From Clostridia bacterium (lineage in GTDB: Bacteria > Bacillota > Clostridia > Oscillospirales > Acutalibacteraceae): a DNA stretch of 37,965 nt. Both the position numbers and the translations under genes were made by a program. The stretch's first letter is position 1. Each line of letters starts with the position of its first letter. Below the pieces are notes generated by a model. The model did not search any database and was not told where the DNA came from. It worked only from the letters and a program-made list of their open reading frames with translations. The stretch covers positions 1-37,965 of the forward strand of contig JAFTEL010000054.1 of the NCBI GenBank assembly GCA_017453685.1, given 5' to 3'. Of the stretch, positions 2,444-36,249 are shown piece after piece.

Positions 2444-3418
2444 TTGAATTTTGAATACCACGCAAAATCCGGCGTCCACACCGGCTTTTGCCTCATCAAA
2501 AGCTGTGAACAAAAGCTGAACAAACGGGGCGAACCGTATCTGGATATGGTGCTGGGCGATTCGTCCGGCGAAATCTCCGCCAAGCTGTGGAACTACAATG
2601 AGGAGCTGCACGGCACCTTCGCGGTGAACACGGTGGTCAAGGTGCAGGGTACGATCAGCGAATTCAACGGCTCCGATCAGCTTCGCATCGACCGCATCCG
2701 CCGCGCCGTGGAATCCGACAACGTCAAGATCGAGGATTTTGTCGCTTCCGCCGCCTATGGGAGCGAAGCCATGTTTGACGAACTCATCCGCCTCACGCAG
2801 CAGTTTCAGGATAAGGAGCTGGCGCTGCTGACTTCCGCCGTTCTCAACGAGAACCGCGACACGCTGCTCTACTATCCCGCAGCGTTCAAGCTGCATCACG
2901 CCATGCGCGGCGGCTTATTGCAGCACACGCTCTCGCTGGTTCGGCTGGCGCAGAGCGTCGCCAAAATCTATCCGTTCATCAACGAAGACCTGCTGCTCAG
3001 CGGCGCCATGCTGCACGACGTCGCCAAGCTGCGGGAGCTGATTGCCGACGAGACCGGCATCGCCACGGGTTACAGCGTCAAAGGCACGCTGCTCGGCCAT
3101 TTGGTCATGGGCGCCATGATGGTGGAAGAAACGGCGAAAAAGCTGGGTATTCCCGAAGAAAAGGCCGTTTTGGTGGAGCATATGCTCATTTCGCACCACG
3201 GCGACCCCGAATTCGGCGCGGCGGTGCGCCCGCTGTTCATCGAGGCGGATATTCTCTCGGCACTCGACCGGCTGGACGCCCGCATCGTGGAAGAAAACGG
3301 CGCTCTCAACGGCGTGCAGGCAGGCGCGTTTTCCAACCGCCAGTGGGCGCTGGACAACCGCTCATTTTACAATCACGGCTTAGGTCATCCCGAAAACGAA
3401 ACCGATTTAGGACTTTGA
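2444..3418 (+). CDS. yhaM: 3'-5' exoribonuclease YhaM family (OB fold + HD domain)
   Basis: 324 residues, close to the roughly 310 of Bacillus YhaM. An N-terminal OB fold (about 10-90, with YLDMVLGDSSGEISAKLW) binds nucleic acid. An HD phosphohydrolase domain (about 150-290) follows, with the metal-binding pair in MLHDVAKL near 190 and a later ISHHGDPEFGA. Family members degrade RNA or single-stranded DNA from the 3' end with a divalent metal. The start is a TTG at 2444, 9 bases after GGAG; the earlier TTG at 2437 runs into a stop at once. It is the first gene of a three-gene operon; the next start is 17 bases after its stop. Confidence 0.88.
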   Translation: MNFEYHAKSGVHTGFCLIKSCEQKLNKRGEPYLDMVLGDSSGEISAKLWNYNEELHGTFAVNTVVKVQGTISEFNGSDQLRIDRIRRAVESDNVKIEDFVASAAYGSEAMFDELIRLTQQFQDKELALLTSAVLNENRDTLLYYPAAFKLHHAMRGGLLQHTLSLVRLAQSVAKIYPFINEDLLLSGAMLHDVAKLRELIADETGIATGYSVKGTLLGHLVMGAMMVEETAKKLGIPEEKAVLVEHMLISHHGDPEFGAAVRPLFIEADILSALDRLDARIVEENGALNGVQAGAFSNRQWALDNRSFYNHGLGHPENETDLGL

Positions 3419-3434
3419 AATGGAGGAAACCATC

Positions 3435-4481
3435 ATGTCACAGCGCAACCATGAGGTCACGACCGCTCATCCGCTTTTGAAAAAGGACGGCAGTCCGGCA
3501 GAACCCGGCTGGTCCAAGCGTCTGGTTCAGGTTTACAGCCGCGATCAGATCAAGGCACCCAAGATCCGCATCAAGGAATGGGATTACTATCTGGTCATTT
3601 CCAACAAGGAGCAGGCGGGCTTCGCCTTCACCATTTCCGACGACGGGTATATCGGTCTGCAGAGCGTTTCCCTGCTCGATTTTTCCGTGCCGTGCGAACA
3701 CACCGAAACGGTGCTCAACGCCTTCCCCATGGGCAAGATGAAGCTGCCCGCCACCTCGGAACAGGGCGACGTGTGCTACCACGACAAGCGGTTGAACATG
3801 GAGTTTTTGAAGACGCCGGGCAAGCGCCGCATCGTGAGCAATTTCAAGAATTTCCAAGACGGCAAGCTGTTCAAGTGCGACATCACGCTGGACGAACCCG
3901 AGATGGACACCATGGTCATCTGCAAGCCGTGGAAGGAAAAGAAAACCGCGTTTTATTATAATCAGAAGATCAACTGCATGCGCACTTCCGGCACCGTGGA
4001 ATTTGACGGGCGCGTCTACACCCTCGACCCCGCCGCCGATTTCGGCACCCTCGACTGGGGGCGCGGCGTCTGGACGTATGACAACACGTGGTACTGGGGT
4101 TCGGGCAACGGCGAAGTGAACGGCAAGGCGTTCGGTTTCAACATCGGCTACGGCTTCGCCGACGACAGCGCTGCGACCGAGAACATCCTGTTCTATGACG
4201 GCAAGTGCCACAAGTTAGACGAGATCGCGTTCAACATTCCCGAGCGCGACGGCAAGAAGTGCTACACCGAACCGTGGACGTTCACTTCCAGCGACGGGCG
4301 GTTTGAAATGGACTTCGTGCCGATCCTCGACCGCGCGGCGAAAATCGACTTGAAGGTCATCGTCAGCGACCAGCATCAGGTGTTCGGCAGAATGAGCGGC
4401 AAGGCGGTGCTCGACGACGGCACCGTGCTGGAAATCAAAGACCTGCTCTGCTTCGCCGAGGACGTACACAACAAGTATTGA
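3435..4481 (+). CDS. DUF2804 domain protein
   Basis: 348 residues spanning the whole DUF2804 domain. It is rich in W, Y, F and G and has DPAADFGTLDWGRGVWTYDNTWYWGSGNG in the middle (quoted in two parts: DPAADFGTLDWGRG and VWTYDNTWYWGSGNG). There is no signal peptide or membrane segment. The family is widespread but its chemistry is unknown; the aromatic-rich beta pattern suggests a barrel fold, which is inference. The ATG at 3435 is preferred over the in-frame ATG at 3420 because GGAGG sits at 3422-3426. It lies between yhaM and prmA (10-base gap to prmA) and is probably cotranscribed with them. Confidence 0.8.
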   Translation: MSQRNHEVTTAHPLLKKDGSPAEPGWSKRLVQVYSRDQIKAPKIRIKEWDYYLVISNKEQAGFAFTISDDGYIGLQSVSLLDFSVPCEHTETVLNAFPMGKMKLPATSEQGDVCYHDKRLNMEFLKTPGKRRIVSNFKNFQDGKLFKCDITLDEPEMDTMVICKPWKEKKTAFYYNQKINCMRTSGTVEFDGRVYTLDPAADFGTLDWGRGVWTYDNTWYWGSGNGEVNGKAFGFNIGYGFADDSAATENILFYDGKCHKLDEIAFNIPERDGKKCYTEPWTFTSSDGRFEMDFVPILDRAAKIDLKVIVSDQHQVFGRMSGKAVLDDGTVLEIKDLLCFAEDVHNKY

Positions 4482-4491
4482 GTGGATAACA

Positions 4492-5415
4492 ATGGACTGG
4501 ACTGAAATCATCATCACGGTAGCAAACCGCGATCTGGACAAAGCGGCGGCCATCGCGCAGGTGCTCGTGCCGGGCGTTTATATCGAAGACTACGCCAATC
4601 TGGAGCAGGAGGCCTATGAGATCGCCGGCATTGACCTGATCGACGAGGAACTGCTCAAAAAGGATCGCACGAAGTGCCTGATCCACCTTTACATCTCCCC
4701 CGAGGAAAACCCGACCGAAGCGACCGCGTTTTTGACGGAACGGCTCACGGCGGAAAAAATCGCCTTCGAGATGGACACGGCGGTCTGCCGCAACGAGGAT
4801 TGGGAGAACAACTGGAAGCAGTATTTCAAGCCCATCCCCGTGGGGCAGCGGCTGCTCATCCAGCCGATCTGGAAGGAAGCGGTCGAAGCGGGCAGCCGCG
4901 CGGTGCTGAAGATCGAACCCGGGCTGGCGTTCGGTTCGGGCACGCATGAAACGACCCGCCTTTGTCTGGAAGCGCTGGAACCGTACATCAAGCCGGGCGT
5001 GGAAATGCTCGACGTCGGCTGCGGCAGCGGCATTTTAAGCGTCGCGTCGCTTTTGCTCGGCGCGCATCACGCCGTGGGGGTGGATATTGACGCGCTGGCG
5101 GTCAAGACCGCGAAAGAAAACGGCGAACTCAACGGCTTCACCGCGCCGCAGTACGAAGTGTTCCGCGGCAGCCTGACCGAAAAAGTGAACGGACAGTTTG
5201 ACGTGATCGCCGCCAACATCGTGGCGGATATCATCATCCTGTTTTCCTCGCAGGTCGGTCCGTTTCTCAAGGACGGCGGCGTGTTCATCGCCTCCGGCAT
5301 CATCTCCCCGCGCGAGCGGGAGGTGCTCGCGGCGTTCGAGCAAAACGGCTTTGCCGTCATCGCCCGCCATGAGAAAAATGGTTGGCTGTGCTTTGAATGT
5401 AAAAGGAAAGTTTGA
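4492..5415 (+). CDS. prmA: Ribosomal protein L11 methyltransferase PrmA
   Basis: 307 residues, the usual PrmA length. The N-terminal half is the substrate-recognition region, a short linker follows, and then a class I SAM methyltransferase domain. Motif I is LDVGCGSG (about 173-180), preceded by LAFGSGTHETT, a PrmA signature, and followed by GVDIDALAV and the catalytic-loop region ANIVADI (about 239-245). It trimethylates L11 of the large ribosomal subunit. The ATG at 4492 has only a weak ribosome site, which fits translational coupling to the gene ending 10 bases before it. It is the last gene of the operon. Confidence 0.93.
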   Translation: MDWTEIIITVANRDLDKAAAIAQVLVPGVYIEDYANLEQEAYEIAGIDLIDEELLKKDRTKCLIHLYISPEENPTEATAFLTERLTAEKIAFEMDTAVCRNEDWENNWKQYFKPIPVGQRLLIQPIWKEAVEAGSRAVLKIEPGLAFGSGTHETTRLCLEALEPYIKPGVEMLDVGCGSGILSVASLLLGAHHAVGVDIDALAVKTAKENGELNGFTAPQYEVFRGSLTEKVNGQFDVIAANIVADIIILFSSQVGPFLKDGGVFIASGIISPREREVLAAFEQNGFAVIARHEKNGWLCFECKRKV

Positions 5416-5427
5416 TGCAAAAAATTG

Positions 5428-5463
5428 AAGCGGCTGAACAAAACCGTTCAGCCGCTTTTTTAT
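5428..5463. terminator. Bidirectional terminator between convergent operons
   Basis: Perfect 10-base arms GCGGCTGAAC (5430-5439) and GTTCAGCCGC (5446-5455), with an A run before and a T run after. It serves prmA (+) and the GH16-like gene (-). Confidence 0.88.
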
Positions 5464-5474
5464 GTTTTTCTTTT

Positions 5475-6425
5475 TTATTTCTGATAGATTCTTACGTAGT
5501 CCACAATGAAATCGGTGGTCACACTCGTGTCGGTCGGGAGCTTTTCCGCTTCGGGGATTTCCAGCGATACGATCACGTATTCCTCCACTTCGGAAACGCC
5601 GTCCGCCCATGCGTTGCGTGCGGTCTCCACACCGTTGACGTAGAAGATGTATTCGTCTTCCGTCCATTCCAGTCCGTAAGTATTATAGGTGTGGTAAATG
5701 TCGTTGCCCTTGAAACTGCCCAGACTGCAGGAATCAAGGGCGGGAGGCACGGTAGTCTCCCGGCAGCAGTGCACGGTCTGCGTGACCGAATTGTGCTTGA
5801 ACCGCTGCCCGTAGTTGAGCGACTCAAAAATATCCAGCTCCGCGCCGCCCACACCGCCGCGGGAAAGCGCGTCGTAGGGATGGTCGGCCTGGATCCAGAA
5901 CGCGCTCCAGAAGCCGGGCGAATCGTTGCAGATGCAGCGAATCTCATAATAGCCGCGCAGGTATTTCTGCTTGAGCATGATCATACCCACGTACCAGCCC
6001 TCGCCGTAGTTCGCGGAAGTGTCGGCAGGCAGATTGTTCTGATCGCGGTACTGCGCCGAAATATAGAGGTTGCCGTCCCTGACCTTGACCTGATCGGGCG
6101 CGTTGTAGCCGCCCCGACGGGAACCGTTGGCGCGGTAGACCCACTTGGTCGTGTCCAACTCGGCGCCGTCAAACTCGTCTTCAAAAACGAGCCGATAGCC
6201 TTTATCCGCCAGAATTTGCTCGTTGATCGGTTCGCCGCGCGGGGTGAGCGCGCCGTTGAACAGGAGCATGCCGAATACCTCGGCGATGATGAGAATTGAC
6301 GATACGATCGCCTTGGGCGAGAAAGAGGTGAAAATCTTTTTGAAAGCAGCCGCGGCCTGATCCAGCGCATAGGCTTCACGCCACGCCAGCGGCACGCCTA
6401 ATTTGAGCAAAAGCTGAGCGAGCAC
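5475..6425 (-). CDS. Membrane-anchored GH16-family glycoside hydrolase
   Basis: 316 residues. A hydrophobic segment (about 41-62, AIVSSILIIAEVFGMLLFNG) acts as a signal anchor, followed by a GH16 jelly-roll domain. The catalytic motif E-x-D-x-x-E is present as ELDIFE (E196, D198, E201), with WSAFWIQADHPY before it and FIVDYVRIYQK at the end, both typical of GH16. Such enzymes cut beta-1,3 or beta-1,3-1,4 glucans or related polymers outside the cell; the substrate here is unknown. The GTG at 6425 is chosen because AAGGAGGGG (forward 6432-6440) lies 6 bases upstream and overlaps the previous stop codon. Starting at the TTG 24 bases earlier would place the ribosome site inside the gene. It is last in a three-gene operon. 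Confidence 0.82.
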   Translation of the reverse strand: MLAQLLLKLGVPLAWREAYALDQAAAAFKKIFTSFSPKAIVSSILIIAEVFGMLLFNGALTPRGEPINEQILADKGYRLVFEDEFDGAELDTTKWVYRANGSRRGGYNAPDQVKVRDGNLYISAQYRDQNNLPADTSANYGEGWYVGMIMLKQKYLRGYYEIRCICNDSPGFWSAFWIQADHPYDALSRGGVGGAELDIFESLNYGQRFKHNSVTQTVHCCRETTVPPALDSCSLGSFKGNDIYHTYNTYGLEWTEDEYIFYVNGVETARNAWADGVSEVEEYVIVSLEIPEAEKLPTDTSVTTDFIVDYVRIYQK

Positions 6426-6438
6426 AAACGACCCCTCC

Positions 6439-7008
6439 TTATTTTTCAAACGAGCGTTCTTCGATCATTTTTTCGATCTGCGCGCACATCAGCGCAAAGG
6501 TCTGTTGACCCAAATAGCGAATGACGGCGTTGTTGTCGGCGTTGCAGAGCATGGCGAAGCTCTCGCCGATGGCTTTGTTCGCGTCGTCCTTTTTCACCGC
6601 CAGATAGTAGAAGGTGAACGAAGTGCCGCCGGAAACGGTTTCATAGAATTCATATTCGTCGCGGCGCAGCTTGTCGTAAAGCGCGTCGGAAGCCGTGGCG
6701 GCGACGAGCGGCGGCAGCAAACGGAACAGCGTATGTTCCGCCGCAAAGACCATGAGGATGCGAAGCTGCAGCTTGATATCGTTCGTTACGGAACGGTCAG
6801 CCAAAATGGCTTTCAGTTCCTCATTCAGGTCGTCGCTGTCGGGCGTCATGCCGGCTAACAGCTTGCCGAGCTCTTTCGCCTTGGCGGCGTTGCCGTTGGC
6901 CATGTTGCGCTTGAGCTCTTCCGCCAGCACGATGATGTCCAGGTCGGTGGTGTCGCGATGTTCTGTTTTGTTGCCTGCGTTAAAAATCTTCACGTCATTA
7001 TCTTCCAT
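6439..7008 (-). CDS. Unknown acidic alpha-helical protein
   Basis: 189 residues, not recognised. It is predicted helical, charged and cytoplasmic, with no signal peptide or membrane span. The middle is more hydrophobic (LRILMVFAAEHTLFRLLPPLVAA) and the end is ALMCAQIEKMIEERSFEK. The ATG at 7008 is preferred over the GTG at 7017 because the AAGGA ribosome site is only 2 bases from the GTG. It lies 16 bases after the PHP gene and its stop overlaps the ribosome site of the GH16-like gene, so the three are translated as one unit. Confidence 0.65.
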   Translation of the reverse strand: MEDNDVKIFNAGNKTEHRDTTDLDIIVLAEELKRNMANGNAAKAKELGKLLAGMTPDSDDLNEELKAILADRSVTNDIKLQLRILMVFAAEHTLFRLLPPLVAATASDALYDKLRRDEYEFYETVSGGTSFTFYYLAVKKDDANKAIGESFAMLCNADNNAVIRYLGQQTFALMCAQIEKMIEERSFEK

Positions 7009-28165: not shown

Positions 28166-29116
28166 TTACGGTCTGGGGGTGCCGCAGTTCGAGCAGAATT
28201 TCGCTGAATTCGGCGTGCCGCAATTCGGGCAGAACCACTGCGCGGGCTGGGCGTTCACCTGCGGCTGCTGAGGTGCATAACCCTGCTGCTGATAACCCTG
28301 CTGGGGCTGCTGAACGTAGCCTTGCTGCTGATAGCCCTGCTGGGGCTGCTGAACGTAGCCCTGCTGCGGGGTCTGACCGAAGCCCGTCGCGGCTGCCGCG
28401 AAGCCCTGCGCCTGATTCGGGAAACCCTGCGGCTGCTGGGCGTAGGTCTGCTGCGCCTGCTGCACATAGCCGTTCGGGTAAACGGCGCCGGGCTGCTGGG
28501 CGCCGAACGCCTGCGGCACGGGCATGCCCTTGAGCGCGGCGATGATGCGGTTGCCTTCCATGACATAGCTCTGGTAAGGCAGGGAGTTGGCGTCCTCCAC
28601 CTCGTGATTGTTGAGTTTGAAATCGATCTCGTCGAACCAGCGGTTGTTCACGGTGACGTGCATATAGAAATCATAGGTGTAGCGGTAACGGCGGGGATTG
28701 TAGCTGACGTTGTTGCCCTGCGCGTCCTTCTGATAAATCTCATCGCGGTCTTCCTTGATCTCCATCGAGCAGCTTGTGACCGAGGAAAGCGGGATCAGGT
28801 CGGGGTTATCATCCTTCCACTTGCCCATTTCGCCGGAATACACGATGAACAGCCCGGTTTTATTGTCGATATAAACCTTATAGTGGCCGCCGTAGACCTG
28901 ATCGGGGAAGAAATCGAGCAGCTTCGTTTTGTTCTGTTCGCGGTAGGCAAGGTGCTCCTTCATATCCGCGACCGTCGTGCGGCGGCGGTCGGTCATGAAG
29001 GGCGAAATCTTCTTTGCGCAGTCCTTGCACATGTTGCCGTCTTCCAGCTTGCGGTTGCCCAAAAGGCTGATCTTTTCGCCGCAAATGTCACAGAATTTTT
29101 TGTCAAACAGTCCCAT
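28166..29116 (-). CDS. DUF4428 zinc-ribbon protein with a Gln/Tyr/Gly repeat linker
   Basis: 316 residues. The N-terminal DUF4428 ribbon has [17 protein letters not shown] then CKDCAKK (C9, C12, C30, C33). A beta-rich PH-like domain follows (about 65-195). A long low-complexity linker (about 205-290) is rich in Gln and contains near-identical blocks of [15 protein letters not shown]-terminal ribbon, [19 protein letters not shown], ends the chain. There is no signal peptide. The role is unknown; the linker may vary in length by repeat slippage. The ATG at 29116 follows AAGGATG. A miniature element ends only 46 bases upstream, so its promoter may lie within that element. Confidence 0.8.
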
Positions 29117-35666: not shown

Positions 35667-35773
35667 GTGTTCGCCCTCAATCATCGGCAAAGCGAAAGCA
35701 AAGCAAAATGAGGACACGAAAAAACGGGCGTTTTTTACCGCTCAAAGCCTTCGGTTCGAGTCCCTTCCCCAAC

Positions 35774-35814
35774 AAAAAAACATGGGAGATACCCTTTGGG
35801 TGTCTCCCATGTTT
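35774..35814 (-). terminator. Array terminator, unit 3
   Basis: AAACATGGGAGATACCC (35778-35794) and its partner (35798-35814) form a 17-base stem with one mismatch or wobble; U run on the minus strand. Confidence 0.8.
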
Positions 35815-35953
35815 GGCGCGCTGGAAGGGATCGACATAGAATTGCCCTGCAATTCTATGCGTACTCGGCTCATGCCTCGCACATTTGAGCGAAAAACGCT
35901 TCACTGAAGCGTTTTTTAACGCTCAAAGCCTCCGGTTCGAGTCCCTTCCCAAC

Positions 35954-35994
35954 AAAAACTGAGGACGACACCCTCTTGGGTATCGCCCTCAGTT
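35954..35994 (-). terminator. Array terminator, unit 2
   Basis: Arms 35957-35973 and 35978-35994 pair over 17 bases. The two imperfect positions are G-U only on the minus strand, i.e. the strand of the tRNA. U run at 35958-35954. Confidence 0.85.
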
Positions 35995-36131
35995 GGCGCG
36001 CTGGAAGGGATCGACATAGAATTGCCCTGCAATTCTATGCGTGCTCGGCTCACGCCTCGCACATTTGAGCGAAAAACGCTTCACTGAAGCGTTTTTTAAC
36101 GCTCAAAGCCTTCGGTTCGAGTCCCTTCAGC

Positions 36132-36172
36132 AAAAAATATACGGAGTATACTCAACGAGCATACTCCGTATT
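36132..36172 (-). terminator. Terminator of tRNA-Arg
   Basis: Perfect arms ATACGGAGTAT (36139-36149) and ATACTCCGTAT (36161-36171) with a six-base U run on the minus strand, directly after the CCA end. Confidence 0.9.
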
Positions 36173-36249
36173 TGGCGCGCTGGAAGGGACTCGAACCCCC
36201 GACCTTTTGGTTCGTAGCCAAACACTCTATCCAGCTGAGCTACCAGCGC
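36173..36249 (-). tRNA. tRNA-Arg (ACG)
   Basis: 77 bases including CCA. The acceptor GCGCTGG/CCAGCGC, D-arm GCTCAGCTGGATAGAGT, anticodon loop CTACGAA (anticodon ACG, read as ICG) and T-loop TTCGAGT are present. Its own 3' end is copied in the downstream array. Confidence 0.95.

Follow-up and report, generated by a model that had tools for sequence, protein, structure and literature searches.

tRNA genes are landing sites of bacterial mobile DNA. The classical layout of tRNA-integrating elements is a duplication of the tRNA from the T-loop to the CCA end together with a terminator, and such an integration classically leaves behind a displaced tRNA 3' end and a terminator supplied by the element. 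Another group of short repeats, REP/BIME with RAYT, consists of extragenic palindromes without a preferred gene type. Finally, casposons insert at tRNA 3' ends and duplicate 14 bp of the target (PMC6977970). Here, we describe a widespread class of non-coding structured units found where a tRNA transcription unit ends, immediately past the terminator of its last tRNA.

The window, i.e. the whole stretch of 37,965 nucleotides that was analysed, contains an array of such units 3' of a tRNA-Arg(acg) gene; the gene and all array parts lie on the minus strand, and the array is therefore found at lower coordinates than the gene. The tRNA is intact (36173..36249; ARAGORN; Rfam RF00005, 64.5 bits), and the arms of the array derive from its T-arm and 3' end. 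Starting from the CCA end, a first terminator-like hairpin (36139..36171; inverted repeat I7 with 15-nt arms, fold and sequence), with a T-run after it at about 36132-36137, is followed by the reverse complement of the tRNA T-arm, termed T' in the following (GAAGGGACTCGAACC; 36114..36128; inverted repeat I6, 100% complementary), by the core of unit 1 (36015..36113; fold, repeats I1, I2 and I9), and by the tRNA 3' end in a second copy, which extends from T-loop to CCA and closes the unit (35993..36014; direct repeat D3, 18 nt at 100%, and sequence). T' and the copy of the tRNA end form the closing stem, within which the core folds into three hairpins. The next terminator-like hairpin (35958..35993; sequence), with a T-run at about 35954-35958, differs from the first one (19/49 in the terminator comparison, row L001) and leads to T' of unit 2 (35934..35949; inverted repeat I4, 16 nt at 100%), its core (35835..35933; direct repeat D1, 92%) and the tRNA 3' end copy closing it (35813..35834; direct repeat D3). 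After a third terminator-like hairpin (35778..35814; inverted repeat I5), the array ends with T' of a broken third unit (35753..35768; inverted repeat I3, 16 nt at 100%) and the truncated start of its core (35720..35752; direct repeat D2 and sequence), which is not followed by a second tRNA copy.

The direct repeats of the array extend over 162 nt with 92% identity at a spacing of 180 nt, in agreement with the 180-bp period and 2.2 copies reported by TRF for the window. The 18-nt copies of the tRNA 3' end lie at 35813, 35993 and 36172, the last one being the tRNA itself, and the T' copies of 15-16 nt are 100% complementary to tRNA-Arg(acg). The fold of one unit reached z = -10.2, and 0 of 200 shuffles were equally stable. 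These results bear out what a sequence-only reading of the locus had described, namely two full units and a broken one after the tRNA, closed by tRNA 3' ends in the same orientation, with an inverted T-arm copy and the shape of a large palindrome bounded by tRNA sequence. The order of the parts given there had to be corrected, since the inverted T-arm is tRNA-proximal and the direct 3' end distal in each unit, and the description has to be extended by a terminator-like hairpin with a T-run between the units, whose sequence is different each time. The interval 35720..36249 that had been assigned to the array does cover it, but also takes in the tRNA gene itself. Because terminators 1 and 2 are alike at only 19/49 positions and the 162-nt repeats at 92%, we conclude that the segment from CCA to T' evolves apart from the core. 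Elsewhere in the window (28281-28385), there is a short tandem repeat with a best period of 39 bp and 93% matches.

The same layout was found at many other tRNAs, a full unit comprising T' of the adjacent tRNA, a folded core, the second tRNA copy from T-loop to CCA, and a terminator. A second tRNA 3' copy was located at most 400 nt away in 85 of the 119 tRNAs with T', and in these 85 loci the unit length ranged from 90 to 326 nt with a median of 162 nt. The inverted GTTCRANYC lies at a median of 53 nt after CCA (43-60 nt for the middle 90%), beyond a terminator-like hairpin. Another tRNA followed within 120 nt downstream of just one of the 119 tRNAs with T', compared to 47 of the 68 tRNAs without T', from which we conclude that the units are located at the ends of tRNA transcription units. 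Tandem and truncated copies occur. Since the start of the tRNA copy, as judged by eye, ranges from T54 to A58 among core families, no single cleavage site is visible. An array behind tRNA-Cys inside a 4.8-Mb contig (L323) has no core at all: each of its three 92-bp copies consists of tRNA end, terminator, spacer and T', with two bases between T' and the next tRNA end (T'-CT-T). A second type of repeat after several tRNA terminators (L143, L145, L147; L031, L037, L027) consists of strings of short hairpins with linkers like GTGAAAT or ATGATAT, in which no inverted T-arm was seen.

Tailoring of T' to the local tRNA was tested with 180 distinct tRNAs, mostly gathered for having T' and thus not random, 117 of which were anchored by a TYGAAC 20-115 nt downstream. 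The match was scored at 14 positions near TYGAAC, 12 of them left free by the search pattern, and amounted to 0.598 for the own tRNA of each T', compared to a mean of 0.449 and a maximum of 0.487 for permuted tRNAs (1000 permutations, 117 anchored tRNAs). The excess spans approximately tRNA positions 51 to 65, i.e. the T-arm, and fades into the acceptor stem. At positions where the tRNA and the second copy of the unit differ and T' sides with one of them, it sided with the tRNA in 37 cases and in none with the unit, a count that is biased because T' was located by its similarity to the tRNA over positions 53-61. In addition, T' matched nearly as well without a second tRNA copy (0.761, n = 34, including a few false anchors) as with one (0.833, n = 78). 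Taken together, T' appears to be coupled to the tRNA rather than just to the closing stem. The earlier picture can thus be refined in that the inverted piece is restricted to the T-arm, follows the adjacent tRNA and not the unit's own second copy (with the bias of the count just given), and sits after the terminator of the last tRNA.

The cores, on the other hand, are shared between tRNAs. In genus g80, one core family accounted for 21 matches in genome G281 and 13 in G206, distributed over 10 and 8 tRNA ends, respectively, and for 29 of the 34 matches a tRNA on the same strand lies at most 1 kb upstream, with 0 on the opposite strand. Two of the remaining five follow a tRNA-Leu end that is cut by the contig start, one is an orphan, and two lie further along what is apparently the array of the same tRNA beyond inserted DNA, 2.6 kb after tRNA-Met and about 10 kb after tRNA-Leu, with matching tRNA-end copies. 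Cores at different tRNAs within a genome had a mean identity of 0.89 (n = 65), compared to 0.91 for the same tRNA in different genomes (n = 7) and 0.89 when both tRNA and genome differed (n = 204). With about 89% identity, cores at different tRNAs must be the result of copying from locus to locus. One core thus stands behind many different tRNAs, and T' is rewritten to each local tRNA. Arrays with mixed cores were also found (L144, L146, L148); their inter-unit segments are near-identical in the spacer at a tRNA-Pro (L144), alike in the first and third position at a tRNA-Ser (L146), and different at another tRNA-Pro (L148).

An alignment of 28 units from four genomes revealed one stem closed by T' and three hairpins. 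Double changes were present in 10 of 24 pairs, five of these in the core, and 97.6% of the cells were paired compared to 89.3% in shuffles, 0 of 500 shuffles being as high. Between genera, the cores differ greatly, and the tRNA-Cys array mentioned above has none. One core type contains the hairpin AAACAGTYC-RGT-GRACTGTTT, which is scattered in many bacteria, mostly away from tRNAs. As a marker of tRNA units this hairpin was discarded, since of the matches listed (at least 124) only 15 have a tRNA on the same strand no more than 400 nt upstream, 9 of them together with T'. A viral contig (L283, positions 3049-6912) contains the hairpin AAACAGTCCAGTGGACTGTTT four times, with similar flanks and at distances of 0.9-1.8 kb. 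In Bacteroidota (Cyclobacterium and Algoriphagus; L205, L226), the same hairpin is located behind tRNA-Ser in opposite orientation, in tandem in L226, and no tailored T-arm copy was seen in these hairpin units.

The spread of the architecture was estimated with the pattern GTTCRANYC-N(50-80)-GRNTYGAAC, i.e. T-arm, gap and inverted T-arm, and with the reversed pattern as control, so that the following figures are pattern counts and not verified units. Within the genus, 8 of 11 genomes contained the pattern and one the reversed pattern. In the family, the pattern was present in 206 of 398 genomes, at up to 15 places per genome, with at most 2 matches of the reversed pattern per genome. For the class, 151 of 391 genomes (reversed pattern at most 3 per genome) represent an upper bound including false positives, because the match list contains neighbouring tRNA genes and coding matches. 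Inspection of 30 loci from the class search, ten returned by the search (L321-L330) and the others hand-picked from its list (L331-L350) and hence not a random sample, revealed T' together with a second tRNA copy in 13 of them, from the further family codes f30, f50, f74, f89 and f105. Among viral contigs, the sole set searched beyond the class, a stricter pattern matched 10 stretches; L351, L358 and L359 contain full units, and L354 and L357 T' but no second copy. The surveyed genomes are presumed to be Clostridia on the basis of named records that show this layout. Among the matches listed in the hairpin search, nine named records have a tRNA and T', and their titles are Oscillospiraceae, Clostridia, Eubacterium or Eubacteriales. 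In general, the sample contains one genome per species, many assemblies are fragmented, and the loci were mostly gathered by the pattern under study.

Searching by sequence gave a much narrower result. BLAST with the window unit matched 3 of 59 genomes including its own, and the exact core pattern of this unit was confined to its own genome among 398 family genomes (a draw without G007-G010), so that the extent of the family is underestimated when searching by sequence. In contrast to the architecture, the core sequence is local. Presence is patchy: two congeneric genomes (G002, G006) had neither the architectural pattern nor a BLAST match to the window unit, and tRNA-Glu and tRNA-Leu, which lack a unit in L107, carry one in another species (L097). 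The sequence-only reading had staked its case on the array not being unique to one assembly and on T-arm matches shared by other tRNA loci. Indeed, the pattern is found in genomes of the genus, the family and the class, and T-arm matches are common to many tRNA loci of related genomes.

Both sides of single units carry near-identical terminators, as judged by eye, in L030, L081, L086, L094-Glu and L098, and the homology ends in the T-run or at most about 5 nt past it, as would be expected for the remnant of a duplication from the T-loop to the transcript end. In 37 of 51 loci, however, the stretches before and after the unit share less than 60% by the measure of the script, and many look unrelated, from which we conclude that terminators diverge fast, get replaced or are brought in. 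In two cases, parts of what is apparently the array of one tRNA are separated by accessory DNA of about 9.6 kb (G281:C15) and about 2.2 kb (G281:C9; loci L160 and L140), the first with what we take by eye to be two-component and ABC-transporter-like ORFs, the second with a presumed amidase-like and a membrane-protein ORF. No integrase was seen by eye among the ORFs between these array parts, and a cargo-bearing autonomous element was rejected on this basis. Neither did L035, L058 and L358 qualify as cassettes; they look like truncated units followed by other genes (presumably NYN-like, phosphotransferase-like and AlbA-like, respectively, as recognised from translations or DNA) and are not closed by a tRNA copy. 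According to our reading of L358, a provirus is apparently inserted further 5' in the tRNA, and the array is intact beside it.

In addition, the genomes were scanned for an engine, and the loci for known RNA families. Y1_Tnp (PF01797) was detected in 7 of 15 element-rich and in 7 of 16 element-free genomes, with no match in G281, G197, G274, G380, G313, G384, G081 and G199. Since it shows no association with element richness, IS200/RAYT was rejected as the engine, and in this respect the units also differ from REP/RAYT. Among 28 element-bearing genomes, just 7 contained a reverse transcriptase (RVT_1) and just 8 an IS110 transposase (PF01548; 6 over the cut-off), which sets the units apart from retroelements and from IS110/bridge-RNA elements; both enzymes were dismissed as engines as they are missing from many element-rich genomes. 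The scanned genomes are 95-99% complete, so that a gene may be missing from an assembly. Tyrosine recombinase (PF00589) gave a single match each in G281, G206 and G545, as if these genomes used a single-subunit Xer, and the matches of G281 and G206 lie far from the array positions. A strong tyrosine-recombinase match with an open frame of 335-361 aa was present in 12 of 14 genomes. No Rfam family reached its gathering score over the units in the window or in 13 unit-bearing loci, a few sub-threshold matches touching unit regions (e.g. atpB RNA with 22.5 vs 37.4 bits in L033), and none was found over seven loci with the AAACAGTYC-RGT-GRACTGTTT hairpin, which are not tRNA units. Between 5S rRNA genes and a unit-bearing tRNA-Leu (L034, 326-397), there is a match to Gut-1 RNA below the gathering score (43.4 vs 50 bits).

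Our favoured reading, which we put forward tentatively and with somewhat less than even confidence, is that the array is a non-autonomous structured insertion element with arms templated by its target. The core would act as the element, its insertion would duplicate the stretch that begins at the T-loop of the tRNA and ends with the T-run of the terminator, and the inverted T-arm would be copied from the target at insertion. The array would later grow via tandem duplication, and template switching during replication would probably keep T' matched to the tRNA afterwards; an enzyme, if there is any, would act in trans or might have been lost. Tailoring, the sharing of cores and the mixed arrays would all be accounted for by insertion with copying of the T-arm. 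The dissimilar flanks of most loci, however, are not predicted by a simple target duplication. We infer mobility of the units from the occurrence of a single core at many tRNAs, their patchy distribution and the truncated copies; among genomes sampled at one per species, no insertion event was observed. The sequence-only reading had proposed a non-autonomous family that targets tRNA 3' ends or grows by copying them. It holds as far as a family at tRNA 3' ends that contains copies of them is concerned, with no cargo or recombinase, for which a typical unit is too short, but the movement or growth by copying was not borne out, as neither an engine nor a strain-level event was seen. A more far-reaching proposal, which we consider doubtful, is a mobile class that makes its own target-specific ends. 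Each new tRNA would provide the template for an inverted T-arm and a duplicated tRNA tail, whereby one core could colonise many tRNA genes of a genome without losing the match, the engine being a so far unrecognised activity that is probably host-encoded or horizontally supplied.

The main rival explanation does without a mobile element and is, in our view, rather unlikely. According to this explanation, the inverted T-arm and the tandems would arise at highly transcribed tRNA genes through template switching and unequal crossing-over, which would also keep the arms matched, and REP-like hairpins would then settle in the loop between T' and T. Template switching in replication can create and repair inverted repeats and hairpin arms, as documented in PMC8794818, and needs no enzyme, consistent with the outcome of the four scans for an engine. 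Moreover, the core-less tRNA-Cys unit is just such a T'-T palindrome with a 2-nt loop, T' stays matched without a second copy, and one core type carries a REP-like hairpin that is common, mostly away from tRNAs. However, T' is confined to the T-arm and scarcely reaches the acceptor stem, the layout is identical at many tRNAs and in several families, and the highly similar cores at different tRNAs imply copying between loci.

Alternatively, the units could be scars or satellites of tRNA-integrating elements, i.e. attachment ends with the middle lost or a mini-element moved by integrases in trans, which we regard as quite unlikely. The duplicated segment with its terminator fits the classical layout, and the interruption of arrays by accessory DNA and the often differing terminators on the two sides of a unit also speak for this reading. 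The classical layout, however, does not include an inverted T-arm, some single units are flanked by near-identical terminators, and the provirus in L358 apparently lies beside an intact array, apart from the lack, as judged by eye, of an integrase ORF between array parts and the distance of the only tyrosine-recombinase match from the arrays in G281 and G206.

An improbable explanation is a functional RNA device, in which the read-through transcript from T' over the core to the second tRNA 3' end would fold and act in tRNA 3' processing, in termination or in binding of the tRNA by T'. The covarying structure, the uniform orientation behind the last tRNA, and the complementarity of T' to the tRNA even without a second copy would be expected for such a device, but not the patchy presence between congeneric species, the tRNA-Glu and tRNA-Leu genes that carry a unit in one species and none in another, or truncated units, interruption by other DNA and strongly variable cores. 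An assembly or annotation artefact or chance is practically negligible: several arrays do lie at contig ends of fragmented assemblies (L018, L020, L022, L055), but arrays inside 3.1-4.8 Mb contigs (L065, L066, L323), reversed-pattern controls of at most 2 to 3 per genome and the permutation test refute it. The observation of the tRNA-tailed array is thus confirmed as real, and chance is excluded because the same design recurs at many other tRNAs and in other genomes, including these long contigs.

When compared to known systems, the units resemble REP/BIME in being short, folded, intergenic, non-coding and arranged in arrays, and one core type has its hairpin in common with repeats of many bacteria. 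They differ by their position behind tRNA terminators, which in the one core family followed in two genomes holds for nearly all matches, by arms rewritten to the local tRNA, and by the second tRNA 3' copy. With tRNA-targeting integrative elements they share the tRNA 3' end duplicated from T-loop to CCA and the restored terminator, but a typical unit is too short for an integrase or cargo, no own integrase was found near the attachment site, and the inverted T-arm, the tandem units and one core at many tRNAs are different. CRISPR arrays and casposons are alike in logic, with a segment (here T-loop to terminator) duplicated around inserts, casposons in addition being found at tRNA 3' ends; the repeat of the tRNA units, however, is about 80 nt long and includes an inverted T-arm, and the inserts are recurring structured cores instead of unique spacers. 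Similarly, integron attC arrays alternate folded sites with variable short segments, and their arm sequence is free as long as it pairs, whereas in the tRNA units the arms follow the tRNA, most of the alternating segments are terminators, and attC-like features in the cores are limited to GTT/AAC. No description of inverted T-arm units behind tRNAs was found in the open-licence literature, subscription journals lying outside this search, and the accessible parts of PMC8040213 and PMC2267715 describe no such family. The comparisons placed the units in none of these systems, CRISPR/casposon and integron arrays being compared by layout.

If the arms are templated by the target, the units would be repeats that have their recognition sequence rewritten wherever they are located, and if replication slippage alone keeps the arms matched, they would provide a large natural record of template switching. 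The arrays complicate tRNA annotation and break assemblies. They also occupy the segment used by integrases and may thereby change where islands land.
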